From: Polyangium mundeleinium
GTDB taxonomy: Bacteria; Myxococcota_A; Polyangia; Polyangiales; Polyangiaceae
Length of the DNA: 64,000 bases
Direction of reading: 5' to 3'
Assembly: GCF_028369105.1 (NCBI RefSeq)
Contig: NZ_JAQNDO010000001.1
Location: 12,556,501-12,620,500 of the forward strand
Both the position numbers and the translations under genes were made by a program. Below, piece after piece: positions 12,145 to 36,766 of this stretch (within the stretch, counting starts at the first letter, position 1; each line of letters opens with the position of its first letter). The notes below the pieces were generated by a model that did no database searches, had not been told where the DNA came from, and was given only the letters and a program-made list of their open reading frames with translations.

Positions 12145-12173
12145 TTGACTTCGAGGTTTTTCTCGGGTCTACT
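12145..12173 (+). promoter_or_regulatory. Candidate sigma-70-type promoter of the terpene synthase gene
   Basis: TTGACT at 12145-12150 (5 of 6 with the -35 consensus) is followed by a 17-nt spacer and TCTACT at 12168-12173 (4 of 6 with the -10 consensus). Transcription would start near 12180, giving a leader of about 40 nt before ATG 12220. A longer reading from 12145 would put coding sequence inside this promoter, which also argues for the internal start. Confidence 0.45.
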
Positions 12174-12208
12174 CGATGCTGGAATCATTGGCATAACGCC
12201 CACGCGCC

Positions 12209-12214
12209 AGGAGG
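12209..12214 (+). promoter_or_regulatory. Strong Shine-Dalgarno deciding the terpene synthase start
   Basis: A perfect AGGAGG ends 5 nt before ATG 12220. Few genes in the window have so good a site, and it fixes the start at 12220 rather than the open frame beginning at 12145. Confidence 0.75.
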
Positions 12215-12219
12215 GCCTC

Positions 12220-13200
12220 ATGACTCTCATGAGTTCTGCCTTATATTGTCCGCTACCTTCGGCGCTCAATCCCAACGGTGCCGAGGCGCAGGCCGCGAGC
12301 CTCGGATGGGCGCGGCACCACGAGCTTCTTCCAACGGAAGCCCTCTACACGCGGCTCGCAAAAATTCAGCTCGGAACGCTCGGCGCGCGATTCTTCCCTG
12401 ACGCGAGCGCCGATGCCCTACGAATCGCGACGGATTGGCTCGTGCTGTTTTTCCTGACGGACGACCTGAGCGAGCGGCCGGAGGTGCACCCGATCGATAC
12501 CGCGCTATTGCTGGGTCGGCAGGTGAACGTCCTGCGTGGAACCGAAACGCCGCAAAGCGATATCCCGATGGGGAGCGCGTTCGAGGATCTTCGGCTCCGG
12601 ATGACGCGCATGTTCTCGGAGGCCTGGTTCGCACGTTTCGTCGACAAGGTGGCGGATCTGTTCGCCGGTTTTGCGTGGGAGGCGATCAATCGAAAAAACC
12701 GGTTCGTCCCGCACACGGAGCTTTATTTGGAGGCGCGAAAGACCACGATTGGCCTTTCTCCGCTGATCGAGCTCGCCGACGCGGACCGTGCGCGGCCCGC
12801 GGGGTCGGCGGCCCGAATGCGGCCGGACGTCGCGCGGCTCGAAGGCCAGGCTTGCTCGCTCGTGGGAATGGCGAACGACCTGTTCACGTATGCGCGGGAG
12901 CTCGACGAGGGCGATTACCACAACCTCGTCCTCGTGCTCATGCGGGAGAAAGAAATCGGCGCCGCGCAAGCCGAGGAGCTGGTGGTCGGCATGCACAACG
13001 AGCGCATGCGCCAATGGTTCCAGCTCGCGGAGCGTCTACGCCACGACGAGCCGGACGAGGGCACGCGCCGCTTCGTCACCGCGCTCGGGCATCTGCTGCG
13101 TGGCCATCTCGATTGGGCCTACGAAAACGGGCGGTATCAAGTATCTCCCACCTTGCCGCCCAAGGTCGCCGTCTCGCGAGACGAAGGATCGTCGGGCTAG
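12220..13200 (+). CDS. Class I terpene synthase (sesquiterpene cyclase type)
   Basis: A 326-residue bacterial terpene cyclase, which ionises a prenyl diphosphate (probably farnesyl diphosphate) and folds it to a cyclic hydrocarbon or alcohol. The metal-binding acidic motif is DDLSE (residues 81-85, DDxxE form). The NSE triad is NDLFTYARE (Asn219, Thr223, Glu227; Thr in place of Ser is common). A pyrophosphate-sensor Arg lies in YLEARKTTIG, and the C-terminal RY pair is at 305-306. Length is typical, and the N-terminal PxxxNPNGAEAQAASLGWARHH region fits microbial sesquiterpene synthases. The stop overlaps that of the next, opposite-strand gene by 4 nt (CTAG). The product cannot be predicted. 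No P450 or prenyltransferase is adjacent. Confidence 0.92.
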   Translation: MTLMSSALYCPLPSALNPNGAEAQAASLGWARHHELLPTEALYTRLAKIQLGTLGARFFPDASADALRIATDWLVLFFLTDDLSERPEVHPIDTALLLGRQVNVLRGTETPQSDIPMGSAFEDLRLRMTRMFSEAWFARFVDKVADLFAGFAWEAINRKNRFVPHTELYLEARKTTIGLSPLIELADADRARPAGSAARMRPDVARLEGQACSLVGMANDLFTYARELDEGDYHNLVLVLMREKEIGAAQAEELVVGMHNERMRQWFQLAERLRHDEPDEGTRRFVTALGHLLRGHLDWAYENGRYQVSPTLPPKVAVSRDEGSSG

Positions 13201-14696: not shown

Positions 14697-17600
14697 GTGA
14701 CCACCCGGCAGCCCACAGGTGGTTCCACGCTCGAGCGGGCCCTCCTAGCGCTCGAGAAGATGGAGGCGAAGCTCCTCGCGGCGGAGCGCGCCAAGACCGA
14801 GCCGCTCGCGATCGTCGGGATCGGTTGCCGTCTCCCCGGGGGCATCCAGGGGACCTCGACGCTGTGGCAAATGCTGCGCGCCGGCGTCGACGCCGTGACC
14901 GAGGTCCCGCCGGACCGCTGGGATCCCTCGACGGTCTCCCCACAATCGCCCGCCCAATGGGCCGGCCTCCTCGACAACGTAGACCATTTCGACGCCGCAT
15001 TCTTCGGCATTGGCCGTAGCGAGGCCGCGGACATGGATCCGCAGCACCGCCTCTTGCTCGAAGTGACCTGGGAGGCCCTCGAAGACGCCGGGATCCCTCC
15101 GGAGCGTCTCCTCGGCACCAAGACGGGCGTGTTCGTCGGAATGACCACGCACGATTACGCAGATCTCGTCACCTCGAAATGGTCCGAGCCGCGCGCGCAC
15201 ATCCCCACAGGGATCGGCGGGTCCTTCGCGGCAGGCCGCATTGCGCACATGCTCGGGCTCCGGGGCCCCACCACCGTCATCGACGCAGCCTGCACATCCG
15301 CGCTCGTCGGCCTGCACATGGCCTGCCAGAGCCTGCGTCGCGGGGAATGCGACATGGCCCTCGTCGGCGGCGTGAACCTGCTGCTCTCCGCGAATACGTC
15401 GAACCTGCTCGCGGCGCTCCAGATCCTCTCTCCGGACGGGCGTTGTCGCACGTTCGACGCGCGTGCGAATGGATATGTTCGCGCCGAGGGTGTGGGGGTC
15501 GTCGTACTCGAGCGCCTCGCCGACGCGCAGCGCCACGCGCGCCGGATCTGGTCCCTCGTCCGCGGCACCGCGATGAACCAGAATGGCCGCGCGACGAGCC
15601 TGACGGCGCCGAACGTGCAAATGCAGGCGGCCGTCATCCGCGCCGCGCTCGACGATGCCCGGGTCGGGCCGGAGCGGGTCGGATACGTCGAGGTCCATAG
15701 CAATGGCTCCCCGCTCGGAGACCCCGTCGAGCTCGATGCGCTTCGCGAAGCGCTGGGGAAGCCGCGCTCCGACGGCTCGAAATGCGTACTCGGCTCGATC
15801 AAGACCCGCATCGGGCACGCCGAGGCTGCGTCCGGGATGGCCTCGCTCATCAAGGCCGTGCTCGTGCTGAACCACGAGACGATCCCGATGAACCTCCACT
15901 TCGAGCGCTTGAATCCGAATGCGTCGCTCGAAGACACGCCGTTCGTCCTGCCGACGTCGGAGCTCCGATGGAAGCGCGGCGCGACGCCCCGAATCGCGGG
16001 TGTCAGCTCGACAGGGCTCAGCGGAGCCAACGCTCACGCCGTGCTCGAGGAGCCCCCCCCGGCACGACGCGCCGAAGACCGGCCGGAGCGGCCGCTGCAC
16101 CTCTTCGTCCTCTCCGCGAAGACGCCGGAAGCGCTGCGGGAACGGGCGCGGCAGATGCTTCACCACGTCGGAGCCCATCCCGACCAGGCGCTCGGCGACG
16201 TATGCCACACGCTCGGCGCCGGGCGGTCACATTTCGAGCACCGCTTCGCGGCCGTCGTCGGCACGGTCGCCGAACTCTCGGGGCAGCTCGCGGATTTCGT
16301 TGAAGGCGCCCCGAGCGCCTACCTGCATGGGCGCGTGGAGGGGTACTCCGCGCGCAAACGCGTGGGGTTCGTCTTAACCGGGCTCGCGGCGCACGCGGCC
16401 TCCGCGCTCGGCGCGCGGGACGGGACGCCACCGACGCTGAGGGCCGCGCTGGAGCGCGCAGACGACGCCGTGCACGCGCAGCTCGGGCGCCGGGTGCTCG
16501 GCCTCCTGCACGACGACGCCGCGCGAGGGCCCGCCTCCGTGGTGGACGCGGAGCTCGCGCTGTTCGTCCTGCAATATGCGCTCGTCGAGCTGTGGAACGC
16601 GTGGGGAATCGAGCCCTCGGTGATCCTCGGCGAGGGCTCCGGCGAATGCGTCGCGGCGTGGGCCGCGGGCGTGCTCGACCTCGACGACGCGGTCTGCCTC
16701 GCCGTCGCGCGAGCGCGCCTCCTTGAGAGCGAATGCAGCGACGTCGAGGCGATGGCGCGAGCGCTCGCGAAGATCAAGCTGGCCGCTCCGAAGCGGACTT
16801 TTGCGCTGAGCCTCGGTGGTGCGTTCACGACAAGCTCGCTCGGGACGGCGACGTACTGGGAGCAGCAGATCCGCGTAGCAGTCCGCGTCGGCCCGTCCGT
16901 AGAAACGCTCGCGTCGCAGGGAACCACCGCTTTCGTCGAGATCGGCCCGGCGCCTGTGCTCGCGGCGCGCCCTGCCGCGGAGAATTCGTCGCCGCTGATC
17001 CTCCCCTCGCTGTGGGCCTCGCGTCCCCCCATTCGCGTGCTCCTCGAAACGCTCGCCGCCCTTTATGTCGACGGTTTGGACGTCCGCTTCGACAGCGTCG
17101 ACGCGCCGCACCCGTACCGTCGGATCGCGCTGCCCACCTATCCATTTCAGCGACAACGTTACTGGTTTGGCAAGACAGCGCCGATCGCAGCGCAGCAGGC
17201 GCCAACAGAGGGCCATCCGCTCCTCGGCCGTGCGCTCGAACCACGCGCGGACCGGCCCGAGACCCGCACATGGCAGGTCGTCCTCGACGAACCAAGCCGG
17301 CGAAGCATTGGCTTGCAGCGCGTCGCCGGGACGACGAGGCTCGCCGCCGGCGGGCTCGTCGAGATCGGATGCGCGGTGGCCCGCGAATTGTTCGGGGACG
17401 CCGCGTGGGAGGTCGAGCTCTCGCTCGCCGACCCGCCCGTGCTCCACGACCACGAGCCGGGAATGCTCCAGGTCATCGCCACGCCCGAGGGCCCGGGCAA
17501 GGCTGCCATGAGCGTTTTCTCCCGGGAACGCGCGGGGAGCCCCTGGAGGCGCATCGCCAATGGTCACATCGCGCCCGCGCCCGAGCTCGACGACGAAAGC

Positions 17601-20600
17601 GCGCCGCCGAGCATGCGGCCCGGGCGACGGCAGGGCGTACCCGCGGCGCTATGGGAGCGGCGATTCGAGGCCTTCGGCGTCGATACCGAGGCTTTTCGTA
17701 TCGACCAGCTCTGGCGCAACGGCCACGAGACATTGGCACGCGTGACGCTCGCCCGTGGCAGCACGGCGCCATCGATCTTTCGCGCGGCGACCGCGATTGC
17801 ATCGATCACGCACCCCGCGGCGCATGGTCGCGCATGGATGATCGAAGCCGTCGAGGGCGTCCACGTGCGGCCCACGTCGCTCGAAGGCCGCGCGTGGCTG
17901 CGCCTCAATTGGACGGCGAACGACGGCTTTGCGGCGCGGCTGAGCATGGAGCTCGTCGGGGAAAGCGGCGAGCTCTCGGGCGTGGCGCGGCGAATCAGCG
18001 TCCGCGCGGAGGATCCGGCCGCCGCGCTTCGCGCCGCAGGGAAGGAGCCGCTCGAAGGCGCCTTCGTCGAGCTCGTTTGGCGCGAAATGCCCCCGCCCAT
18101 CACGCCGCCCCCGGCGACGCGACGGTGGGTCGTCATTGCGGACGCGGGTGGCATGGGCGCTTCCCTCGCGCGACGGCTCGATGCCGCCGGGGACATCGTG
18201 GTCACGCTGCCGGCCGAGGACATCGACACGCGTATCGATGACCTCGCGCTGGTGCTCGCGGTGTCCGGCCCCTTCTTCGGCGTCATTTACCTGGGTGCGC
18301 TCGACGTCCCCCCGGACGACACGCTCTCCGTCGCGTCGCTCGACGATGCGCTGCGACGAGGCCCTTGCGCGCTCCTCTCCATCGTGGATGTCCTCGCTGC
18401 GCAGGTTCAGGTCCCGCGCCTCTTTATCGTCACGCGCGGGGCGCAGGCCGCCGGGGACGCGGCGGGCAGCTTCGCGCAGGCGGGATCCTGGGGCCTCGGG
18501 CGCGTCCTGTCGCTCGAACGCGAGGACATGTGGGGCGGCATGATCGACCTCGATCCCGCGCCGAGCCCCGAGGACGCATCGCGGCTCGCCCAGGCGCTTC
18601 TTTGCGCTGGGTCCGAGGATCACATCGCGCTCCGAGGGGACAAACGTCATGCCGCGCGGCTCGTACGCGCCGCCACGCCCGTGCACGAGCCCCTCGTGGT
18701 CCGCTCGGATCGAACCTATCTCGTGACAGGCGGAGCGTCCAAACTCGGCGTCGAGGCCGCGGACTGGCTCGTCACGCGTGGCGCGCGGTCGTTGCTCCTC
18801 GTAGATTCGGACACCGCTGAGGACAGGCCGGAGCACGCTGCCCTGCGACAAACGCTCGAAGCGCGCGGGGCCAAGGTCCTGTTTGTCAGGGCAGACGTCG
18901 AAAGCGCGGGGGTGATGCGTGAGGCCATGTCGCTCACGCCCCTTCCCCTTGGCGGCGTCGTCCATGCAGCGCACGCCCGCGAAGCTGGCCTCCACCGAAT
19001 GACGAGCCGCGATGCCCTGGACGCGCTGCGGGTTGCGCTGCAGCAAAGATCGCGCGCGCTTTTCGCGCTCCACGCGCTCACGGCGACCCTGCCGCTCGAC
19101 TGTTTCATTGTTTTCTCTCCAGCGCCGGCCGCGCTCGGCTGGGAGGGGCTCGGCGCGGACGCGGTGGCCGCCGAATATGGGAGCGCCCTCGCGCGGCTCC
19201 GCGGCCGGCTCGGTCTGCCGGCGACGATCGTGCATCTTTCGTTGCCCGACGAGACGCGTACCCGACAAACGGATTACGAGGACGCGCTCCTCGCGGCGGG
19301 CCTGCCCGGAATGCCTCCCTCCCTTGCCCTGCAGGCCGCCGAACTCCTGGCGGCGGGGGCCCCCGCTTCGGCCATCGTGGCGTGGGCGGATTGGGACCTG
19401 TTCGAGCAATCGCACCACGCGCGCACCGACCGTCCCCTGCTCCAAACCTTGGGCGAGGCGCGCCGCGCGAGCGCGGGCACGGCGACGCTGCGAAGGCGGG
19501 TCGCGGGCGCCGAAATCGGGAAGGCGCGGTGGCTCGTGGAGAACATCGTTCGGAGCGAGGTCGCGCGTGTGCTCGACCTGAGCCCGACGGAGCTGCCGCC
19601 TGCGGACCGGGATTTGCCGGCGCTCGGGATGGATTCCATCATGGGGGTCCAGCTCCTCACGGGCATCGGCGCTGCCTTCGGCGTCCACCTGCCGACGAGC
19701 GCGCTCCTCGGGCGGACCACGATCGAGGGTTTGTCGAGGCGCATCCTCGGCGCCCTGCGTCCTGGCGACGACGCGGCGGCGACAAGGACTGCGAGCCGCC
19801 GCGGGCTGCTCGTCGAGCTCGCCCGCGAAGGGACGAAGCCCCCGTTTTTCATGGCCCCGCCGTCCACGGGCTCGGCGCTCGTCTTCCAGTCGCTCGCCAA
19901 AGAGCTCGGCCCTGATCAGCCCTTTTATGGCTTCAATGCACCCGGCGTCGATACGGCCGAGCCTCCGTGCGATCGGATCGAGGTGCTCGCCGCCCGGTAC
20001 CTCGAAGATCTACGCAAGGTCCAGCCTCGCGGCCCATACCGGCTCGGCGGGTATTCGTTCGGCGCGTTCGCTGCATTCGAGATGGCGCATGTGCTGACAC
20101 GCGCGGGCGAACGCGTCGACATCCTCGTGCTCGGGGATATGCCTGCGCCGCGCCGCCGGGACGACGGGCTTGCTTCGCTCTTCGAGCTGGCGCGGCTCTT
20201 TGACCTGTCGCTCGACGCCAACGAGGCAGGCTCCCTCTCGCGCGACGAGTTCCTCACGCATATGGCCGCGGCCGTGGGGGAGCGGATCATCTTGCCCTCG
20301 AACGTGGCGGAATCCGAGCGGCATCGGCGCCTCTACCGCGCCCATTTGAGCGCGATCGCGACGTTCGCGCCCACGCCGTACGACGGACCCGTCACGCTGC
20401 TGCGCGCCGAGCAAAGCATCCGCAACCTGACGCGCGCCGATCTCCCGGCGGACGAGGCGTCGTATGGCTGGCAATCCCTCTGCCGACAGCCGGTGCGTGT
20501 CCTCGACGTCCCTGGCGACCATTACACGATGTTCCTCACGCCGTGCGTCGTAGAGACCGCCCGTCAGCTCCGCCAGGTGCTCGACGGTCCCGAAGTCGGC

Positions 20601-20603
20601 TGA
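14697..20603 (+). CDS. Terminal type I PKS module: KS-(dead AT)-(dead DH)-(dead KR)-ACP-TE
   Basis: A 1968-residue polyketide synthase that ends the assembly line. An N-terminal docking coil (LERALLALEKMEAKLLAAE) precedes a KS (about 34-455) with Cys199 (DAACTSALVG), His334 (EVHSNGS, for EAHGTGT) and His374 (RIGHAEA) intact. The AT remnant (about 555-800) lacks GQGSQ, reads GEGSGE where GHSxGE should stand, and has lost the subdomain that carries the specificity motif and catalytic His. The DH region reads LQRVAG (His to Gln, Pro to Ala). The KR keeps a TGGASKLG loop but has Lys to Arg, Ser to Pro, Tyr to Asp and Asn to Ala. The ACP is intact (GMDSI, Ser1647), and the thioesterase has GYSFG (Ser1787) and GDHY. 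Uniquely it runs opposite to the other four PKS genes. GTG 14697 has no clear Shine-Dalgarno; ATG 14760 would cut into the coil. Confidence 0.93.
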   Translation: MTTRQPTGGSTLERALLALEKMEAKLLAAERAKTEPLAIVGIGCRLPGGIQGTSTLWQMLRAGVDAVTEVPPDRWDPSTVSPQSPAQWAGLLDNVDHFDAAFFGIGRSEAADMDPQHRLLLEVTWEALEDAGIPPERLLGTKTGVFVGMTTHDYADLVTSKWSEPRAHIPTGIGGSFAAGRIAHMLGLRGPTTVIDAACTSALVGLHMACQSLRRGECDMALVGGVNLLLSANTSNLLAALQILSPDGRCRTFDARANGYVRAEGVGVVVLERLADAQRHARRIWSLVRGTAMNQNGRATSLTAPNVQMQAAVIRAALDDARVGPERVGYVEVHSNGSPLGDPVELDALREALGKPRSDGSKCVLGSIKTRIGHAEAASGMASLIKAVLVLNHETIPMNLHFERLNPNASLEDTPFVLPTSELRWKRGATPRIAGVSSTGLSGANAHAVLEEPPPARRAEDRPERPLHLFVLSAKTPEALRERARQMLHHVGAHPDQALGDVCHTLGAGRSHFEHRFAAVVGTVAELSGQLADFVEGAPSAYLHGRVEGYSARKRVGFVLTGLAAHAASALGARDGTPPTLRAALERADDAVHAQLGRRVLGLLHDDAARGPASVVDAELALFVLQYALVELWNAWGIEPSVILGEGSGECVAAWAAGVLDLDDAVCLAVARARLLESECSDVEAMARALAKIKLAAPKRTFALSLGGAFTTSSLGTATYWEQQIRVAVRVGPSVETLASQGTTAFVEIGPAPVLAARPAAENSSPLILPSLWASRPPIRVLLETLAALYVDGLDVRFDSVDAPHPYRRIALPTYPFQRQRYWFGKTAPIAAQQAPTEGHPLLGRALEPRADRPETRTWQVVLDEPSRRSIGLQRVAGTTRLAAGGLVEIGCAVARELFGDAAWEVELSLADPPVLHDHEPGMLQVIATPEGPGKAAMSVFSRERAGSPWRRIANGHIAPAPELDDESAPPSMRPGRRQGVPAALWERRFEAFGVDTEAFRIDQLWRNGHETLARVTLARGSTAPSIFRAATAIASITHPAAHGRAWMIEAVEGVHVRPTSLEGRAWLRLNWTANDGFAARLSMELVGESGELSGVARRISVRAEDPAAALRAAGKEPLEGAFVELVWREMPPPITPPPATRRWVVIADAGGMGASLARRLDAAGDIVVTLPAEDIDTRIDDLALVLAVSGPFFGVIYLGALDVPPDDTLSVASLDDALRRGPCALLSIVDVLAAQVQVPRLFIVTRGAQAAGDAAGSFAQAGSWGLGRVLSLEREDMWGGMIDLDPAPSPEDASRLAQALLCAGSEDHIALRGDKRHAARLVRAATPVHEPLVVRSDRTYLVTGGASKLGVEAADWLVTRGARSLLLVDSDTAEDRPEHAALRQTLEARGAKVLFVRADVESAGVMREAMSLTPLPLGGVVHAAHAREAGLHRMTSRDALDALRVALQQRSRALFALHALTATLPLDCFIVFSPAPAALGWEGLGADAVAAEYGSALARLRGRLGLPATIVHLSLPDETRTRQTDYEDALLAAGLPGMPPSLALQAAELLAAGAPASAIVAWADWDLFEQSHHARTDRPLLQTLGEARRASAGTATLRRRVAGAEIGKARWLVENIVRSEVARVLDLSPTELPPADRDLPALGMDSIMGVQLLTGIGAAFGVHLPTSALLGRTTIEGLSRRILGALRPGDDAAATRTASRRGLLVELAREGTKPPFFMAPPSTGSALVFQSLAKELGPDQPFYGFNAPGVDTAEPPCDRIEVLAARYLEDLRKVQPRGPYRLGGYSFGAFAAFEMAHVLTRAGERVDILVLGDMPAPRRRDDGLASLFELARLFDLSLDANEAGSLSRDEFLTHMAAAVGERIILPSNVAESERHRRLYRAHLSAIATFAPTPYDGPVTLLRAEQSIRNLTRADLPADEASYGWQSLCRQPVRVLDVPGDHYTMFLTPCVVETARQLRQVLDGPEVG

Positions 20604-20640: not shown

Positions 20641-23600
20641 TCAATCCAGCAGTTTGTCGAGGGCCGCGAGCTTGGCCGCGAGACGAGCCTCGATGTCGTC
20701 CTCCGGCAGTTCCGGCGATTCCGGGGCGGGTGTGGGCTCGGGCGTCGCCGGCGGGGTCGGCGCCTGCGTGGCGGCCTTGCCTTCGGTTATCCCGAGCCGC
20801 TCGAGGAGATGCTCCGCGAGCGCCGCGGGGGTCGGATGGGAAAAGATCAACGTCGCGGGCAACTTCAATCCAAAGATGGGCTCCAGCGATTTTCGCAGCT
20901 CCACGCCCGTCAAGGAGTCCATTCCGAGGCTGGAGAACGTCGCCTGACGGTCGATTCGCGCCCCGTCCATGTGCAACACCTTCCCGAGCTGCTCAAGGAC
21001 ACGCTCCTCCAACAGCCGCGCCCGCTCCGCGGAGGGTGCCGATTCGAGCATCCCTCGGATGCCCTCCGCCAAACCCGCAGGCTCGCCGGCTCCTTTTCCT
21101 CCGCCTCCACCAGATAGCTCTGCCCAGAAAGCCGATTTTCCCTGCTCGGGAAAGTATTGCACGAAGTTGTCGATCGAGAGGTCGGCCACGACGACCCCCG
21201 GGCGGGGCATCGCGAGCAGCCCTTCAAGCGCCTGAGCGGCGACACGTGGAGAAAGAGCGCGCAGGAATGGGTTGCCTTTGCCGCTCGTGTCGTGGCGCGC
21301 CGCCATGCCCACGCCCGCGATCGGCCCCCATTGCACGCTCGTCCCCGGCAGCTTCAGGGCCGACATTCGCTGCGCCATCGCGTCGAGGAAGGCGTTCGCC
21401 GCCGTGTAGGCGGCGGCCCCGGCGAGCCCGAGCACGACGGACACGGACGAATACATGAAGAAGAAATCGAGGTTCAGCGATCGGGTCTTCGTGTACAGGT
21501 TCCAGGTGCCCACGACCTTGGGGGCCATGACCTCCAGGAATGCGTCTCGCCCGACGTGAACGGTCGGCGTGAGTTCACCCGTGACGCCGGCTACGTGCAA
21601 GATGCCGCGCAGCGGGGGCATGGAACCACCGACCTCCGCCAGCATTGTGTCCACCTGCTTGGGCCGGGACACGTCCGCCGAGACCACCTGCAGCCGAGCC
21701 CCCATTGCCCCCATGGCAGCAATCGCCTCCATGGCTTCGCTCGTGGGTGCTCGCCGTCCGACGAGCGCGATATGCCGGGCACCTCGCTCCACGAGCCGCC
21801 GCGCAGCCGCGAGACCGAGCCCTCCGAGCCCGCCCGTAATTAAGAAGCTCGCGTCGGCCGGCAAGGGGTTCGTGGCCTTCGAAGGCGCCGTCAGCGTGCC
21901 CTTGCAGAGCCGCGCGCCATAACGTCCCTGTCCACGCAGCGCGATCCGATCCTCCCCTTCCCCTCCGTGCATCTCGTGCAAGAGCGCGCGCACCTCGTCC
22001 ACGCCGCCCGCCGGATCGAGATCAATGCACACGTTCTCCAGCTCGGCGTGCTCCAGCGCGAGCGTACGCGCGAACCCCCATAGCGGCGCCTGCACGGGGG
22101 ACCCCTCTGTTTCCGACGCATCGACCACGTGCGCGCCCCGCGTGACCCATACCGCGCGCGTCGGCGCGCCGCTGCGCTTCGCCAGAAGGAGCGCTTGCGC
22201 CAGGTAAAGCGCCGAGAGCATCCCGTGCCCGAGGTCGTGCTCCAGCGTGGCCGAGGTCGTCGCCCCGAGCGGCGCGGAATCTAGGCTGAGGAGGTGAATC
22301 ACGCCGGTCCATGGCTCTCCCGTCCGCAGGAGCTCGGCGGCCAGCCGCTCATGGTCGTCGCGGCTGGCCGGATCGATCCGGAAGCTCCCGTCGCTCGCAC
22401 GCGCGTACGACGCGGCCGCCTCGACCGTCACACAATCGTCCCCACACTCCCGAAGGAGCCTCGCCAGCGCGCTGCCGAGCCCCTGCCGATCGACGAAGAT
22501 CAGCCATCGCCCGCGCCGCCGTCGGTGCTCTGCGGCCGACGCTGGCTCCAGGCGCCGCCATTGCACCTCGTAAACGACCTCGTCGAGCGGCGTGCCCTCT
22601 TCGTCTCCCGCGGTCGGTCGACCATGCCGTACGTTCTCGACCCAGTAGCGCGACCGCTGCCAGGGATACGCGGGCAAAGCCACAACACGATATGCCTCAG
22701 GGCAAAGGTTTTTCCAGCCAATCTCCACGCCGGCCACGTGAAGCGCGCCCAGCGCCCCTAAAAGCGCGCGCCGCTCCTCTCCGCTTCGCCGGAGCGTCGC
22801 GATCGCTCGGGCATTCGCGCGTTGCGCCTCGAAGCATTGCTCCAGGTTCGACGAGAGCACCGGGTGCGGCCCCACCTCCACGAACGCGCCGTGCCCATCG
22901 GCGAGCGCCGTGCCCACCGCGCCCGCGAAATCCACGGCTTCGCGCACGTTTCGGCCCCAGTACCCCGCGTCGAGAGCGTCCCCGTCCACCCTCGCGCCGG
23001 TCACGGTGCTGTACATCGTCAGAACGGCCGCTCTCCGACCAATCGAGCCAAGCTCGGACACGAGTTCCCGCGCAAAAGGCTCCATCTGCGGACTGTGGAA
23101 AGCGTAATTCACGCGGAGCGGGCGCGTCACCACGCCCCGCGCGCCGATCTCCCGCAGCACCGCCTCCAGGGCGTTCGCCTCTCCCGACAGGACCACGGAG
23201 CCTGGGTCGTTGACGGCGGCAATGGCGACCTCGTGCTCCCGGCCGGCCAACGCCTTTCGCGCTTCCTCCGCCGGAAGCGACGCCCAAACCATTCGTCCGT
23301 GCCCCGACGCCTTTTGCATGGCGCGACTGCGCAGCGCGACGAGCCGCGCGGCCTCGTCGAGCTCAATCGCCCCCGCCACGTGCGCGGCCGCGATCTCCCC
23401 GACGCTATGCCCAATCACAGCGTCCGGAATCACCCCCCACGACCGCAACAGCTCCGCTAGCGCCACTTCCAACGCGAAAAGCGCGGGCTGCGCGATCTCG
23501 GTCTCTCCGAGGCGCGATCGCTCGTCCGCGGCCGAGAGCTCTTCGATCAGGGAAAAGCTCACGTGGCGGCGCAGGGCGCGATCGATCTCGTCGAGCTTGG

Positions 23601-25386
23601 CACGAAAAACCGGCTCTTCCGCGTAGAGCTGGCTCCCCATCCCCGCCCATTGCGAACCTTGCCCAGCGAAGACGAACACGACCTTGGGACGCGCCTGGCC
23701 GGATGCACGGCCATGAATCACCTCGCTCGAATCCCCCGCGCCATACGACGACAAGAGTCGCTGCATCTCTTCTCGCGTCTCACCCACCACCACGAGGCGG
23801 TGATCGTAGTGCGTCCGCCGCAGGCTCGCCGTGTGCACGACGTCGCGCAGCGAGACGTCGCTCGCCTGGGCCAACCACGCGGCGTACGAACGCGCGAGCA
23901 TCACGAGCGCATCGGCCCCCTTCGCCGAGAGCGGCAGCAAGTACGTCGACGGCTGCTTCGTCGGCGACCGCGGCTCCTCGCTGGCCGGCGCCTCCTCCAG
24001 AATGACGTGCGCATTCGTGCCGCTGATCCCGAACGAGCTCACCCCCGCCCGGCGGGGCTTGCTCCCGCGCGGCCACGGCACGGCCTCCACTGGAACGACG
24101 AACGGCGTACCTTCCAGCACGATACGAGGGTTCAGCCGACGGAAATGCAGGTTCTTCGGGATCCTCTCGCGCTTCATCGCGAGGACCGCCTTGATGAGCC
24201 CCGCGATTCCGGCGGCGCCCTCGAGGTGCCCGATGTTCGTCTTCACCGCGCCGAGAACACACGACGAGCCATCCGCGCGCGGCTGCCCGAGCACCTCTCG
24301 CAGCGCCTCCGCCTCGATGGGATCCCCGAGCGACGTCCCTGTCCCGTGCAACTCGACATACCCGATATCAGACGGCGTGAGGCGTGCACGCTCCAGGGCT
24401 TGCCGGAGCATTGCCTGCTGAGAGAGCACGTTCGGCGTCGTCAAGCCTGTGGACCGACCATCCTGATTGACGGCCCAGCCGCGCACGAGGGCGTGAACTC
24501 GATCGCCGTCGCGCAGGGCGTCCGACAGCCGCTTCAGCACCACGACGCCGCACCCCTCGCCTCGAACGAAGCCGTTGGCGCGCGCGTCGAGCGCCTTGCT
24601 CCGCCCGTCCGGCGACATGGCCTGCGTCTCGAGCAGCAGCGACATCTGGATCGGCGACAGAATGGCGTTCACGCCGCCCGCGAGCGCGAGATCGCTCTCG
24701 CCCGCGCGCAGGCTTTGGCACGCCGTCGCCACCGCGACGAGCGACGAGGAGCAGGCCGTGTCCAGCGCAATGGCGGGCCCTTGGAGCCCGAGCACGAAGG
24801 CGATCCGCCCTGCCGCGGCGTTTGGCGCGGTCCCCGTCGCGCAATAGACGTCATAACGCCCGGCCCGCGCCTGCGCCACGATATGCTGATAGTCGTAGCT
24901 GCACGAGCCCACGAACGTGCCCGTTCGGCTCCCGATCAGCGTATCCGGCGGCAGTCCGGCGTCCTCGAGCGCCCAGGAGGCCACTTCGAGCAGCATTCGT
25001 TGCTGCGGATCGAGCGTCGCCGCCTCTCGGGGCGAAATGCCGAAGAACGCCGCGTCGAACCCGGCCACGTCATCGAGGAGCGCGGCCCAACGTGCCTCCG
25101 GCCTCTGGCCGGGAATCGCGTTCGCGGGCCACCTCTCCTCCGGAATCTCGCGCACGGCATCGACGCCACGGTCGAGCGCCTGCCAGAATGCTTCGTACCC
25201 ATCGTCGCCGACAGGGAACCGGCAGCCCATCCCGATGATGGCGATCGGCTCGTTCGACGCGCGTTCCACGGCGTCGAGGCGTGCCTTCATTTTCTCCAGC
25301 GCGGCGATGGCGCGTTGCAGCGGCGTTGCCTCGCTCGCCGCCGGCTCGCGCCGGGCCGGGTTTCCGGGGCCACCGGCATTGCTCAT
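20641..25386 (-). CDS. Type I PKS module 4: KS-AT-KR-ACP
   Basis: A 1581-residue single-module PKS, last gene of the leftward PKS operon. Docking coil (LQRAIAALEKMKARLDAVE), then KS with Cys212 (DTACSSSLV), His in ELHGTGT and NIGHLEG. The AT has GQGSQ, Ser661 (GHSVGE) and the specificity motif YAFHS with ETEIAQPALFA, malonyl-leaning but mixed. A structural sub-domain leads to a KR with GGLGGLG near 1185 and an intact Lys-Ser-Tyr-Asn set (APKVVG, MYSSVS, AAYTAAN). It has no LDD signature. The ACP carries GMDSL (Ser1491), and an acidic C-terminal helix (DDIEARLAAKLAALDKLLD) is the likely docking tail for the terminal PKS protein. It should add one two-carbon unit and leave a hydroxyl. The ATG overlaps the previous stop in ATGA. 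Confidence 0.95.
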   Translation of the reverse strand: MSNAGGPGNPARREPAASEATPLQRAIAALEKMKARLDAVERASNEPIAIIGMGCRFPVGDDGYEAFWQALDRGVDAVREIPEERWPANAIPGQRPEARWAALLDDVAGFDAAFFGISPREAATLDPQQRMLLEVASWALEDAGLPPDTLIGSRTGTFVGSCSYDYQHIVAQARAGRYDVYCATGTAPNAAAGRIAFVLGLQGPAIALDTACSSSLVAVATACQSLRAGESDLALAGGVNAILSPIQMSLLLETQAMSPDGRSKALDARANGFVRGEGCGVVVLKRLSDALRDGDRVHALVRGWAVNQDGRSTGLTTPNVLSQQAMLRQALERARLTPSDIGYVELHGTGTSLGDPIEAEALREVLGQPRADGSSCVLGAVKTNIGHLEGAAGIAGLIKAVLAMKRERIPKNLHFRRLNPRIVLEGTPFVVPVEAVPWPRGSKPRRAGVSSFGISGTNAHVILEEAPASEEPRSPTKQPSTYLLPLSAKGADALVMLARSYAAWLAQASDVSLRDVVHTASLRRTHYDHRLVVVGETREEMQRLLSSYGAGDSSEVIHGRASGQARPKVVFVFAGQGSQWAGMGSQLYAEEPVFRAKLDEIDRALRRHVSFSLIEELSAADERSRLGETEIAQPALFALEVALAELLRSWGVIPDAVIGHSVGEIAAAHVAGAIELDEAARLVALRSRAMQKASGHGRMVWASLPAEEARKALAGREHEVAIAAVNDPGSVVLSGEANALEAVLREIGARGVVTRPLRVNYAFHSPQMEPFARELVSELGSIGRRAAVLTMYSTVTGARVDGDALDAGYWGRNVREAVDFAGAVGTALADGHGAFVEVGPHPVLSSNLEQCFEAQRANARAIATLRRSGEERRALLGALGALHVAGVEIGWKNLCPEAYRVVALPAYPWQRSRYWVENVRHGRPTAGDEEGTPLDEVVYEVQWRRLEPASAAEHRRRRGRWLIFVDRQGLGSALARLLRECGDDCVTVEAAASYARASDGSFRIDPASRDDHERLAAELLRTGEPWTGVIHLLSLDSAPLGATTSATLEHDLGHGMLSALYLAQALLLAKRSGAPTRAVWVTRGAHVVDASETEGSPVQAPLWGFARTLALEHAELENVCIDLDPAGGVDEVRALLHEMHGGEGEDRIALRGQGRYGARLCKGTLTAPSKATNPLPADASFLITGGLGGLGLAAARRLVERGARHIALVGRRAPTSEAMEAIAAMGAMGARLQVVSADVSRPKQVDTMLAEVGGSMPPLRGILHVAGVTGELTPTVHVGRDAFLEVMAPKVVGTWNLYTKTRSLNLDFFFMYSSVSVVLGLAGAAAYTAANAFLDAMAQRMSALKLPGTSVQWGPIAGVGMAARHDTSGKGNPFLRALSPRVAAQALEGLLAMPRPGVVVADLSIDNFVQYFPEQGKSAFWAELSGGGGGKGAGEPAGLAEGIRGMLESAPSAERARLLEERVLEQLGKVLHMDGARIDRQATFSSLGMDSLTGVELRKSLEPIFGLKLPATLIFSHPTPAALAEHLLERLGITEGKAATQAPTPPATPEPTPAPESPELPEDDIEARLAAKLAALDKLLD

Positions 25387-28300
25387 CCGAGATACTCCTC
25401 GAAGGCTTCGAGTTTGTCCACGAGCCCGGCCTCGTCCTCGGCGACTGCGCTGACGTCACCGGCATCGAATGCGACGATGCTCATATCATCGACGAGGGCC
25501 CCAGGGGCCTCGCCCCGCGGCTCGTCGCCCTGCGCCTGCGCGGGAAACATCCGCTCGTAGAGATGGGTCGCGAGCGCCCGCGTCGTGGCATACGTGAAAA
25601 GGAGCGCCGCCGAGAGCTTGATCCCGAGGCTTGCCTCCAGCCTGTTCCGGAGCTCCAAGCTCATCAAGGAATCGATCCCGATGCTCGAAAATGGCGCGGA
25701 CGTGTCGATCCTCCCAGGGTCCTGCCGCAACACACGCCCAAGCTGCTCCGTCAGGTGGGCCTCGATCATCTTCGCCCGCTCCGAGGGCGCTGCCCGCTCC
25801 AGCGTTTCTCGGATCCCGCCCGCGCCGGCGCCGGCCTCGACCGTGCGAGACTTCTCGTCGATCAGCGCAGCGAAGAACGGCGCGCCTGCGAGGTGGGGAT
25901 AGAACTCCACCCATTGCCGCGCATCGAAACGCACGAGCCCCACCACCGCCTGCGGGCGCTGGAGGACCCTGTCGAAGAGAACATTCCCCTCCTCGGACAC
26001 GAACGTCTCGGCGCCGCGCGACGCGACCCGCGTGCCCCGCAGATCCGAGGCCGCCGCGAGCCCCACATCCGCAAAGGCCCCCCATTGAATGCTCACCCCG
26101 GGCAGGCCCTCCGCCGCGCGAGACTGACAAAGACCGTCGAGGAACGTATTCGCGGCCGCATAATTCGATTGTCCCGGCGAACCGAGCAACCCCGCAGCCG
26201 AGGAGTACGCCACGAAGAAATCGAGGACGTGTCCTCGCGTCGCCGCGTGCAAGTTCCATCCCCCGAGCACCTTGGGCTGCATCGGTCGCAGGAGCTGCGC
26301 TTCGCTCATGTTCTCCAGCGTCCCGTCGTCGAGGAGGCCCGCCGCGTGCACGACCCCGCGGAGCGCCGGCATCGCGCGGTCGATCTCTTGAATCACCCGA
26401 TCGACATCGTCACGCCTGGCGACGTCACCTGACAAAACCCGCACGCTCGCACCCTCGGCCTCCATGGCCTGGATCGCAGCCTGGGCCACCTCGCTGGGCG
26501 CGCTTCGACCCATGAGCGCGAGGTGCCGCGCCCCCTGCCCGACGAGCCACCGCGCCAGGGACAAACCGAGGCCGCCGAGCCCACCCGTCATGAGATACGT
26601 CCCGTCCGGCCGCACCTCGGCGCCCGCCCCCTGCCCCGCGATTGCCACGCGCGCCGCCGGATCCCGCATGGACAAGACGAGCTTTCCCGTGTGCTTGCCC
26701 TGCGCCATCCGCACGAATGCATCCAGCGCGCTCGACACCGGAAACACCTGGCACGGAAGCGGCCGCAGCACCCCCGCGCGCAGCCAGCCAATGACCTCTT
26801 CGAGCAGCGACCTCACGTACGCCGGACGGTGCAGCATCATGCCGCGCAGATCCACGAGCGAGAACGACAGATTCTTCAGGAAGGGCTTTAGCCCGAGCCG
26901 GCGATTCTCGTAATAATCGCGCTTGCCTATTTCCACGAACCTGCCGTGGTCGCGCAGCAATCCGAAGCTCGCTTCGAGCAACTCCCCGGAGAGCGAGTTC
27001 AAGACGACATCGACGCCCTCGCCGTTCGTGATCCGCTCGACGTCTCCGACAAACGAGAGGGACCGCGAGTCCATCACGTGCGCGACGCCCATGGAGCGGA
27101 GAAGTTGCCGCTTCTCTTCGCTCCCCGCCGTGGCGAAAATCTCTGCGCCCACGTGCTGAGCCCACTGGATCGCCGCCATGCCGACACCCCCGGTGCCCGC
27201 ATGAACGAGGACGCGCTCGCCCTTTTGCAGCTTCGCGACGTGCGCCAACGCATAATACGCGGTCAGGAACACGACCGGCGTCGCGGCGGCCTCGTGCCAT
27301 TCGAGCTCGGCCGGCTTTGCAACGACCAGCGCGCGGGGCGCTGTCACGTGCGAGGCCATTGCCATCGGCGTCAGCGCGAGGACCTCTTGCCCAATCGTCA
27401 GATCCTCGACCCCGGGTCCCAGGGCGACGATACGACCGGCGCATTCGCCCCCCAATCGAGGACCCTTCTGATCGGCTCCTTCCACGTCGTCCGGCATCAC
27501 GCCGAGCGCCAGGAGCACGTCGAGGAAATTCAATCCTGCCGCCTCGACCTCGATCTCGACCTCGCCGGGCCCCGGGGCCCTGCGGGCCATCGGTCGCAAC
27601 GCGAGCTTTTCGAGCACCCCGGGCGCGCGATTCTCCAGCCGGAAGGGACGTCCCGACGCAGCCTCGAACCGCTCCGCCGCACCCCCGAGATGCCCTCGCA
27701 CGAGGCGCGCCACGTACCTGCCTTCCGACCGCAGAGCGACCTGATCCTCGTCGTCCCCGGAGAGGATCTCGCCGAGCAGCCGATCCGGTTCGTCCGGGCT
27801 TGCCTCCGACGCAAGGTCGATCCGGACGCAGCCGAGGTCGGGTTGCTCGGTCGCGACCGCTCGTCCGAAGCCCCACAGGGTCGTTTGCGCGACCGCGAGC
27901 GGCCCCGCGTCCATGCCCGTCGCCTGCGCTCCGCGGGTCAGGATGTACAACCGCGGTACGTCCCGCCAACCCTGGCGCAGCAATGCTTGGGACAGGCGCA
28001 TCACGCTCGCAATGCCTCGCCGCAAATCCGCGGCGAGCGTCAGGTCCGTCGTCTCTCGGAATCCCGCGCCGTCGAGCGCCCCGCAATGAATCACGCCGCG
28101 GCAGCCGAGCTTGCCGAATGCTTCGCGCAGGACCGCGTCCCAGTGCGCCGGGTTCATCACGTCCACCCGGAATCGCCCCTCGCCGAGGCGCGCATGCCCC
28201 TCGCCTGCCATGACCTCGATGCACGTCCCACCATGGGCGCGGATTCGATCGGCGAGCGCGGCGCCGAGCCCTCGCTCGTCCACAAGCACGAGCCACGCTC

Positions 28301-31300
28301 CCGCGTCGCCCGCGGTCTCGGGCAGCGGCACGAGCTCCTTGCGCTGCCACGCGACCTCGAACACGCAATCGCCGAACGGATCACCGGCGGCCGGCCGCTC
28401 GGCCTCCGCGAGCCTCTGCACACGAAGCTCGTCGATCTCGACCCATGCATGACCCGCATCGTCGAGAATCCTCAGCGAAACGGCGGGCTCGACGCGTGCC
28501 TCCGTCCTCACGACCCGCGCGTGAACCCACGCGGTCGGACCAGGCCGACCGAAGACGCGCAAGCCTTTCACCTCGACGGGGACGTACGTGCCTTCCCCAA
28601 TCAACGATTGCAACGACGCGCCGCCCACCTGAAAACAGGCATCCATCAAGACCGGATGCACGTGATGCGCCGACGCCTCGCTTTGGAGCTCGTCGGGCAA
28701 ATGGACGCGCGCCAGGGCCTCACCCTCGCCGAGCCGAAGGCTCTGGATGCCCTGAAAATGCGCGCCGTACGACAGGCCTCGCGCCTCCATTCGCGCATAC
28801 TGCGCGCGGGCCTCGACGACCTCGGGGCAACGCGCCTCCACCGCTCCGAGGGCGTCGCCCGCACGCGCCGCGGCGGGGGTCGCGACCAAGCGCAACCTGC
28901 CCTGCGCGTGCGTCACCCATTCTTTTGCGCTCGCCTCGCGGCTGGCGATCACCACCGACGCGCCTCCGCCGGACTCCTCCCGGAGCGAGACCTGCACGAG
29001 CCGTTCTCCGCCCTCAGGCAAGGCGAGCATTCGATCGAACGACATCTCGTCGAGGCGCGCCGCGCCCGCACCGTGGACCTCGACCGCCGCCGCGAGCCCG
29101 AGCTCCACGTATCCCGCGCCCGGAAATACGACCTCCCCCTGCACGCGATGGTCTGCGAGGTAAGGGAATGCCTCCACGCTCACCCATCGCTCCCACACGT
29201 GCAGCTTTGGCTCGGCCGCTGGTACAAACCCGGCGCCGAGCAGCGGATGGCCGCCTTCCGCCTGGGTCGCCCGAGGCTTGCGCGTGCCGGCCTGGAGCCA
29301 ATATCGCTCCCGCTGCCACGGATACGCGGGCAACGTGACGAGGGGCCTCGGCTCGGGGTACAGTTTGTCCCAAGCGACGAAAGCCCCGTGCACGTACAAG
29401 CTCCCGAGCGCCTCCAGCATCGAGCGACGCTCGTCCGCGTGCCGCCGCATCGACGCAATCGCGGCCCCCTCGATCTTCGCCGCTTCGAGGTTCTCCTCGA
29501 TGGCAGGCAACAAGATCGGGTGAGGGCTCATCTCCACGAACAGGCCGTGCCCCTCCTTCATGAGCGCCTGCGTCACCTCCGAAAACCGTACGGACTGCCG
29601 AAGGTTGTCCCACCAATACAATGATCCGAGTTCGTCGCCTCGGAGCAATTGCCCGGTCACCGTCGAGCGCATGGGAAGCGCGCCCGACGAGGGACGGACG
29701 TCGTCCAGCAGGGCTAGCAAATCGCCCTGGAGCCCATCGACCTGCGGGCTGTGCGACGCCACGTCCACCTTGACGCGACGACAAAACACGCCCTTCGTCT
29801 CCAGCGCCGCGAGCACCTCCTCGACCGCCGCAGGATCCCCCGACAGCACCGTCGACCGCGGACCATTGCTCACGGCAACGCTCAGGCGATCCTCGCGACC
29901 CGCGATGAACTGCTCCGCCTCCGCCATCGGCAGCTCGACGAGCCCCATCGCTCCCTTGCCGCTGATGCGCCGCAGAAGCCGACTCCGATGGCAGATGATC
30001 CTGACCGCGTCCTCAAGGCCGAGCATCCCCGCCACGTACGCCGCGGCGACCTCGCCCATGCTATGCCCGACCACACAATCGGGCTCGACGCCCCACGACC
30101 GCCACAAGGCCGCGAGCGCGACCTCGATAGCAAACAAAACGGGCTGCACGACGTCGATCTCCGCGAGCCGCGAGCGCCCCTCCTCCGCGCCGAGCTCGTC
30201 GAGCACCGAAAAGCCGGCCTCGCGGGCGATCGCCTCGCTGGTCGTGGTGATCGCAGCCCTGAAGACCGCCTCCTCCGCCAGGAGCTGCCGCCCCATCCCG
30301 CGCCATTGCGATCCTTGCCCAGGAAAAACGAAGACGACCCTCGGACGACCCGAGGCCTTTCCCTCGACCACCCCCGAAGGCTGCTCACCTCGTCCGTACG
30401 ACGCCAGGAGCTCCGCGAGCTCCTCCCGCGTCCCGGCCACGGCCATCAGCCGTCGATCGAGGTGCGTCCGGCGCGCGCTCGCCGTGTACACGACATCGCC
30501 CAGCGACACGTCCTTCTTCGCCGACAACCATTCCGCATAAGAGCGCGCAAGCGCGCCGAGCGCCCCCGTGCTCCGCGCCGAGAGCGGAAGCAGATAACTC
30601 GAAACCGGCTTCCCCTGTGCCTTCGTCCCTCCGGGTGGCGCCTCCTCCAGAATTACGTGCGCGTTTGTTCCGCTAATACCAAATGAGCTCACGCCCGCGA
30701 AGCGAGGCGTCGCTCCTCGCGGCCAGGGCATGTTCTGTCGGGGGATCACGAAGGGCGTCCCCTCGATCTCGATGCGCGGGTTCAGCGCTCGAAAATGGAG
30801 GGTCCGCGGGATCTCCTCGCGCTCCAGCGCGAGCAGGGACTTGATCACACCCGAGACGCCGGCGGCCCCTTCGAGGTGCCCGATGTTCGTCTTGACGGCG
30901 CCGACGACGCACGGAGCCCCATCCTCGCGCGGCGCACCCAGGACCGCCTTCAGCGCGTCCATTTCGATCGGATCCCCGAGCGGGGTGCCCGTCCCGTGCG
31001 CCTCGATGTATCCGATCTGCTCCGGCCTGACGCGCGCGCTCGCCAAAGCCTGCCGCAACACCGCTTTTTGCGAAAGCACGTTCGGCGTCGTCAGACCCGT
31101 GGATCGGCCATCCTGGTTCACCGCGGAGCCGCGGATCAGCCCCCGAATTCGGTCCCCATCGCGCTCGGCATCGGAGAGTCGCTTGAGTATCAGGATGCCA
31201 CAACCCTCGCCGCGAACGTATCCGTTGGCCCGCGCGTCGAACGTCTTGCATCGACCATCCGGCGAAAGAGCGTTTGTCTGGGCCATCATCTGCATGGTGA

Positions 31301-31999
31301 ACGGCGAGACGATCGCGCTCGCGCCGCCGGCGACAGCGAGATCGCTCTCTCCGCTGCGCAGGCTCTGGCACGCGAGGTGAATCGAAACGAGCGAGGACGA
31401 GCACGCCGTGTCGACCGTGACGGCCGGGCCTTGGAACCCGAACACGTAGGAAAGCCGGCCCGCCGCGGTGCTGCCGACGTTCCCCGTCGCCGAATATGCG
31501 TCCACCGCGTCGATGCCACACGAGACAAGCTGGTGCTCGTAATCGATGATTGCGATCCCGACGAAGACGCCCGTCCGCGTACCGACGAGCCGATCGGCGT
31601 CCTGGCCGCCGTCCTCCAGCGCCTCCCACGTGACCTCCAGCAACATCCGCTGCTGCGGATCGAGGCTCATGGCCTCGCGCGGCGAGATCCTGAAGAAGCC
31701 CGCGTCGAACCCATGAACGTCGGACAGGAGCGCGGCCCAGCGCACGTCGGGACGATTCCCCGGAATCGCGTCCTTCGGCCAGCGCGACGACGGGATCTCC
31801 TGGACGGCGTCGACACCTGCACGCAATCCCTCGAAAAACGCGTCCGGTCCCTGGCCGCCTGACGGGAACCGGCAGCCGACGCCGACGATGGCGATCGGTT
31901 CGGTCTTTTCGCGAAGCAGCGCGTCGCGCTCGGCGCGCACCGTCTTCAGAACGACGAGGGTTTCCCGGAGCTTCGCGAGATAATCAGGTGCTCCGCCGC

Positions 32000-32003
<4 letters not shown>
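25383..32003 (-). CDS. Type I PKS module 3: KS-AT-DH-ER-KR-ACP (fully reducing)
   Basis: A 2206-residue module with the full reductive loop. The N-terminal coil (LAKLRETLVVLKTVRAERDA) differs in sequence from the coils of proteins 2, 4 and 5. KS: Cys201 (DTACSSSLV), EAHGTGT, NIGHLEG. AT: Ser648 in GHSMGE, IDVVQPVLFA and VASHS, the methylmalonyl pattern. DH: His952 in ADHRVQGEVVFPG and Asp in HPVLMDACFQ. ER: the NADPH loop HAGTGGVGMAAIQ near 1600. KR: GGLGGLG near 1805, LDD present, YSSAAG and NYAAAN intact. ACP: GIDSL (Ser2112). The acidic tail ends LVDKLEAFEEYLG. It should add a methyl-branched, fully saturated unit. It overlaps both neighbours by 4 nt (ATGA), indicating coupled translation. 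Confidence 0.96.

Positions 32004-36762
<4,759 letters not shown>

Positions 36763-36766
<4 letters not shown>

Follow-up and report, generated by a model that had tools for sequence, protein, structure and literature searches.

A 64,000-nucleotide stretch of the Polyangium mundeleinium genome (positions 12,556,501 to 12,620,500 of contig NZ_JAQNDO010000001.1; hereafter the window) carries five polyketide synthase (PKS) genes, M1 to M5, and the 1968-codon gene M5 probably encodes, judging from its residues and those of its orthologues, a non-elongating terminal module that transfers and releases the polyketide chain. M5 runs on the + strand as one uninterrupted frame of 1968 aa from a GTG start at 14697 to the stop at 20603, convergent with M1 to M4, which all lie on the − strand. 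A sequence-only reading had noted this open frame, correctly, and had left two options for a module with a live ketosynthase (KS), acyl carrier protein (ACP) and thioesterase (TE) and ruined acyltransferase (AT), dehydratase (DH) and ketoreductase (KR) domains, namely that the ACP of M5 (ACP5) is loaded in trans by another AT or that the module only transfers and releases the chain. The second option is now supported by alteration of the KS motif HGTGT in all five M5 copies, and the first is possible but disfavoured. Homologues of M5 were searched for in 59 relatives of this genome (G000, 13.25 Mb), of which five are Polyangium (G001 to G005), and domains were called with Pfam at E 0.001.

The KS of M5 (KS5, 14796 to 15908, +, its match starting at residue 35) keeps Cys199, His334, Lys369 and His374. 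Two further features were added to what had been described before: the HGTGT motif reads HSNGS, and the gating-loop Phe is replaced by Thr439, just beyond the domain range. The comparison set of 196 KS matches was reduced to 179 by dropping KS shorter than 330 aa and the loci L041, L042 and L080 (duplicates of G005, G002 and G003), which gave five M5 KS, 28 other KS of the six Polyangium clusters and 146 KS from other fetched loci. All five M5 KS read SNGS after the His position, the His itself being kept in G000, G005, G002 and G003 and replaced by Ala (GCC codon) only in G001, and Cys, Lys and the second His are kept in 5/5. HGTGT, as well as the whole pattern of Cys, HGTGT, Lys and His, is present in 28/28 other cluster KS and in 140/146 KS of other loci, among which the His is lost in 0/146 and Ser stands for Cys in two. 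The gating position reads T/T/T/T/S in the M5 KS and Phe in 28/28 Polyangium and 134/146 other KS. Among 66 near-invariant columns, only Lys272, Gly335, Thr336 and Thr338 are changed in all five M5 KS, and the last three fall in the HGTGT motif. Each M5 KS breaks 5–8 of these columns, compared with 0–2 in the other Polyangium KS and a mean of 1.4 in KS of other loci (two of which break 19), the columns being at least 95% conserved in the 174 other KS, a definition that favours those 174 in such counts.

In a tree of 53 rows, into which no reference trans-AT KS0 was placed, the M5 KS formed a single clade (support 100/100) that sits among other KS from these Polyangium clusters, and thus a single origin of the lesion is likely. 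A non-conserved HGTGT motif, by which KS0 domains are recognised in the excerpt of PMC5772238, is found together with a retained nucleophilic Cys in 5/5 M5 KS, and loss of the catalytic His of that motif, the stricter mark of a KS0 (PMC4661987), is found in the G001 copy only. Because His334 is kept, KS5 is called KS0-like and not a strict KS0.

Behind the KS end and KS-AT linker (15909 to 16370, +; Pfam CurL-like_PKS_C / RhiE-like_linker, residues 468–537) lies the AT remnant (16371 to 16961, +), with a partial Pfam match covering profile positions 23–121 of 319. The AT model aligned at ∼25–128 and 230–325 of 328, so that positions ∼129–229 (about 100) are missing, and it is there that the aligned neighbouring ATs have their specificity motif and catalytic His. 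GQGSQ is absent and GEGSGE stands in place of GHSxGE with Gly at the nucleophile, exactly as the sequence-only reading had it. We take the missing stretch to be the ferredoxin-like small subdomain of known AT structures. The AT subdomain description in the excerpt of PMC10006239 agrees with that assignment. With the nucleophile Ser changed to Gly and the catalytic-His stretch lost in 5/5 M5 copies, the AT, as read from its residues, cannot load an extender unit. The DH remnant (17202 to 18086, +) was found by its N-terminal half only (PKS_DH_N, 28.9 bits; no PS-DH), its second half being unrecognised by Pfam, and the structural KR half and dead KR follow (18087 to 19376, +); the catalytic His of DH is Gln874 and the KR tetrad is Arg/Pro/Asp/Ala, and the alignment bore out both of these earlier observations. 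Likewise verified in the alignment and a motif table were the intact Cys199, His334 and His374 of KS5, the phosphopantetheine Ser1647 of ACP5 (19524 to 19766, +) and Ser1787 of TE (19809 to 20546, +), which likely forms a triad with Asp1814 and His1942, the latter two assigned by spacing. The ACP Ser and the TE residues are kept in 6/6 genes, namely the five M5 genes and a G004 gene in which the M5 end is fused to another module.

An M5 homologue was found in 5/5 other Polyangium genomes, in four of them as a gene of its own that points towards the rest of the cluster (identity 62.6% in G005, 56.6% in G002, 55.4% in G001 and 38.6% in G003). The genes flanking M5 are common to these genomes, which places the copies at the same locus, and the frames are open at 1930–1982 aa in all five genomes. 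All four separate orthologues have the AT lesion (Ser to Gly with the identical missing stretch), and in all four the DH motif is altered and the KR tetrad broken, with variation in detail: G003 has a Tyr one residue ahead of the aligned KR Tyr position, and G002 and G001 keep the KR Lys and Ser. An AT lesion combined with an altered KS motif in five species at one locus is beyond chance, and the recurrence of the gene with the same AT lesion excludes an assembly artefact. A class-wide search with a KS-AT-remnant profile (289 genomes, four candidates scored per genome, matches listed to E 1e-100) scored the five M5 genes at 1114–1283 bits and no other match above 745.

TE was found by Pfam in none of M1 to M4, that of M5 being the sole one among the five PKS genes, and release therefore needs M5. 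The last elongating module, M4 (20641 to 25386, −; KS-AT-KR-ACP), bears a C-terminal docking helix, and M5 begins with a docking coiled coil (residues 1–33; 14697 to 14795, +). These 33 residues share 91–94% identity with G000 in G005 and G002, 70% in G001 and 52% in G003, exceeding the other compared parts within the G000-G005-G002 trio and not toward G003 (52% versus 59% for the KS). A common helix motif closes the last module upstream of M5 in G000, G005, G001 and G002; G003 has a weaker form of it, and M1 to M3 of the G000 cluster are without it. From these features we infer that the N-terminal docking helix of M5 would receive the chain from the C-terminal helix of M4; KS5 would take it onto Cys199 by transacylation, without malonate condensation; and the chain would then pass to the phosphopantetheine of ACP5 and be released by TE, the AT, DH and KR remnants possibly serving as structural parts that hold the KS-linker-AT-DH-KR shell together. 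If KS5 does not condense, the product would therefore carry four extender units, not five.

An AlphaFold2 model of M5 residues 30–830 (alignment of 15 rows) had a mean predicted local distance difference test score (pLDDT) of 82.7 and a predicted template modelling score (pTM) of 0.85, with blocks of the AT remnant at 73–95 and three KS loops below 50. The model matched KS-AT didomains and trans-AT ketosynthases alike, with Z 48–55 among the 50 matches listed, many of which, including the best, were tied. The AT remnant, for which a structure prediction had been proposed as a check, is thus predicted to fold.

Selection was assessed through the ratio of nonsynonymous to synonymous substitution rates (dN/dS), calculated by NG86, which gives rough values in GC-rich DNA once dS approaches 1. 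Whole-M5 values from G000 were 0.33 for G005, 0.39 for G002, 0.38 for G001, 0.60 for G003 and 0.49 for the part shared with G004, compared with 0.21–0.44 for the best matches of live M2 to M4, some of which are paralogous modules for M2 and M4; thus the whole-length values resemble those of live modules in 3/4 pairs. By domain (five of the ten possible M5 pairs, with six pairs of M3/M4 as live control), KS gave 0.24–0.36 in M5 versus 0.13–0.32 in live modules, AT 0.43–0.85 versus 0.22–0.35, DH 0.33–0.93 (0.93 against G003) versus 0.30–0.40, and KR 0.37–0.66 versus 0.24–0.51; the KS-AT linker (0.21–0.44) and TE (0.27–0.60) were measured in M5 pairs only. Within M5, constraint is strongest on the KS and the KS-AT linker, and the KS is the most conserved of its large domains. 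This comparison across relatives, itself among the suggested checks, upheld the proposed selection for KS-ACP-TE in the KS and not in ACP5, and it extended constraint to the dead domains, whose ratios are also below 1 in the five pairs, so that dead AT, DH and KR look retained as scaffold.

Several observations weigh against a purely transferring KS5 and the release route built on it. His334 is present in G000 and three orthologues, which leaves condensation a small chance, and the G003 copy is far diverged (38.6%) and retains the DH His. ACP5 is looser than live ACPs (0.32–0.88 versus 0.17–0.30), which speaks against strong selection on it, and in most pairs KS5, too, is slightly looser than its live counterparts. 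That M4 hands over to M5 is drawn from gene layout and docking ends. Finally, the same kind of AT lesion is found elsewhere in modules whose KS motif is normal and whose DH or KR is recognisable.

Those last modules bear on the possibility that KS5 does elongate, with a FabD-type AT or the AT of a neighbouring module supplying malonate to ACP5 in trans and a fifth, unreduced unit added. Outside the M5 group, 26 KS modules with a truncated AT (16 + 10) were retrieved from cyanobacteria, Burkholderia, Acidobacteriota and Myxococcota by truncated-AT queries, so that their number is no rate; 5/16 of the first set are near-copies from Burkholderia, and the second set came from nine stretches chosen for a match running far into the profile end. 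They share the loss of the AT middle stretch and mostly its Ser to Gly change (12 of the 13 read by eye among the first 16, and 9/10 in the second set), and they differ from M5 in keeping the HGTGT His in 26/26 (exact HGTGT in 20/26) and in carrying, in the eight checked with Pfam, DH (four), KR (two) or an ACP leading into a condensation domain (two). Such modules probably elongate, receiving their extender units in trans, and since the lesion occurs together with a normal KS motif and a recognisable DH or KR, AT loss alone does not mean absence of elongation. The intact Cys, His, Lys and His in 4/5 M5 copies and two stand-alone AT-like frames in the G000 genome (331 and 516 aa) are also in keeping with trans loading, and M5 resembles an elongating trans-AT module in having no working AT. 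Elongation by KS5 is nevertheless unlikely, given SNGS in place of the HGTGT end of a condensing KS in 5/5, the lost His in G001 and the gating Phe lost in 5/5; moreover, no discrete AT was found in the G000 cluster, the only one examined for it, all AT matches of the window lying within the five PKS genes and the nearest stand-alone AT-like frame lying ∼100 kb off. By itself the AT lesion is thus not special; its combination with a broken HGTGT motif, with DH and KR both dead and with an ACP-TE end was found, among the sets examined, only in Polyangium.

M5 seems to be an uncommon, cis-AT variant of release and KS0 modules already known in outline. Like M5, the trans-AT KS0 of the terminal part of swinholide SwiF has lost HGTGT and stands at the end of the line (excerpt of PMC5772238), and the KS0 of mupirocin MmpA accepts the chain from an upstream ACP in vitro (excerpt of PMC10952193); unlike these trans-AT lines, the M5 KS groups with its own cis-AT clusters and the G000 copy keeps the His. 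CalA3 of the calcimycin PKS (PDB 7wvz) is, in the excerpt of PMC10006239, a cis-AT release module that performs no Claisen condensation, with a live KS and with dead domains judged structural. In both CalA3 and M5, the catalytic residues of AT (Ser to Gly), DH (His to Gln) and KR are lost in a terminal module that keeps the KS Cys-His-His; they differ in that CalA3, according to that excerpt, keeps the AT small subdomain and is without an ACP, whereas M5 has lost that AT stretch and has ACP Ser1647 and a TE. M5 can thus be likened to a hybrid of KS0 and CalA3 that departs from each in one defining feature (KS His kept; ACP and TE present). The closest solved DH-KR to M5 by sequence is DEBS KR1, CalA3 not being among the matches listed, and kinship with CalA3 is therefore not claimed. 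As the CalA3 KS forms a C-N bond by amidation or hydrolyses the chain (excerpt of PMC10006239), KS5 might itself release the chain or form the bond (hydrolysis, amidation, ester), with TE secondary or editing. CalA3 Ala336 and Leu437 would correspond to the fifth HGTGT letter and the gating position, both altered in M5, by a numbering we derived assuming no gaps. We regard this as improbable, since release in CalA3 is ascribed, in the same excerpt, to the KS alone in a module without ACP, and the ACP and TE catalytic residues of M5 are kept in 6/6 genes.

The G004 fusion bears on whether KS5 is used at all. M5 residues 684–1968 match the second half of its protein, so that M5-type DH0-KR0-ACP-TE follow an M4-type, live KS-AT with GHSMGE and HGTGT, and in the tree its KS falls among those of M4 from other species. 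No KS of M5 type and no AT remnant turned up in the stretches of G004, which fits a KS5 whose only part is to connect the release unit with the line. A homologue with an intact AT, named earlier as a finding that would count against the module as described, was thus met only as this fusion, in which KS5 was not found. An M4/M5 inversion as its source was rejected, the reciprocal product of KS5 and AT remnant with KR4-ACP4 having been sought in G004:C53:420500-440400 without success. The missing KS5 of G004 and the already dead AT, DH and KR would also suit a route in which TE or ACP5 acts directly on the ACP of M4 and the rest of M5 is a tether, which is very unlikely in view of the KS Cys, Lys and second His kept in 5/5 and the standing of the KS among the M5 domains. 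That M5 is a decaying pseudo-module or assembly artefact without a role, as its three dead domains and the raised AT and DH ratios might hint, has next to no likelihood, decay without selection being rejected on frames open in five genomes at dS about 0.8–1.0 and on overall dN/dS values, rough as they are, close to those of live modules in 3/4 pairs, and M5 holding the only TE found.

M5 as a transfer-and-release module also belongs to a wider pattern of the cluster. Upstream of M4 lie M3 (25383 to 32003, −; KS-AT-DH-ER-KR-ACP, where ER is enoylreductase) and M2 (32000 to 36766, −; KS-AT-KR-ACP), both called with Pfam, and M1 (36763 to 44976, −; ACP-KS-AT-AT-DH-ER-KR-ACP), which provides loading plus first extension; its leading ACP followed by KS-AT-AT is an arrangement we take, from other myxobacterial PKSs, to be for loading. 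The number of live KS per cluster is 4 in G000, 5 in G005, 5 in G001, 4 in G002, 4 in G003 and 6 in G004, and M4 of G002 and G003 seems to be without KR, judged from the protein length after the AT. From G000, dS was 0.08–0.37 for four flanking genes, 0.30–0.39 for M1 and 0.5–1.1 for the best matches of M2 to M5. The higher values of M2 to M5 indicate that the M5 alleles predate the species split at the locus or were exchanged, the lesion having persisted that long. M1 and the flanks track species, M2 to M4 vary in number and content, and M5 or its DH0-to-TE end is present in 6/6 genomes. M5 may therefore, tentatively and with somewhat less than even chances, be the unchanging end of a shuffling line, encoded on its own on the opposite strand: M1 and flanks would be inherited with the species, M2 to M4 would be exchanged, and any chain presented by the last module would be off-loaded via the retained docking contact.

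Some further observations were made along the way. In the window, the PKS middle (20641-36766 with 14697-20603) looks exchanged or shuffled relative to 36763-44976 and the flanks, and a terpene synthase gene (12145-13200, +) adjoins M5, matched in the G003 and G004 stretches and not in those of G001, G002 and G005. G001:C6:523790-531532 and G005:C110:83140-89841 (loci L024 and L021) hold an M2-type module in which a single KS is followed by two full tandem ATs, as though a block resembling M1/M3 and led by an AT had been added behind the AT of M2. The AT lesion occurs in cis-AT type modules of several phyla (L076, L077, L078, L082, L085, L086, L087, L094, L096, L098 and L120-L128); in L125, L126 and L127, from other Polyangiales, the KS reads HGVGT or HGVGA followed by AD, not GD, and sits behind roughly 700 N-terminal residues, perhaps as another non-canonical KS group. 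L059:16922-21031 and the L124 KS at frame residue 722 have lost the AT middle stretch and kept a GHSxG-type Ser. A search of the open literature on Polyangium polyketides tied no paper, and hence no published name, to the cluster.

One locus in six genomes thus provides natural replication of what seems to be the switch of a cis-AT module from elongation to release. If this is true, an extender count derived from the number of modules would be wrong by one in five of the six clusters. What the KS is required to do can be judged against the G004 fusion as a natural control, and M5 makes the role of dead PKS domains testable. Should M5 accept different chains, it would be a candidate for general use in off-loading from engineered assembly lines.

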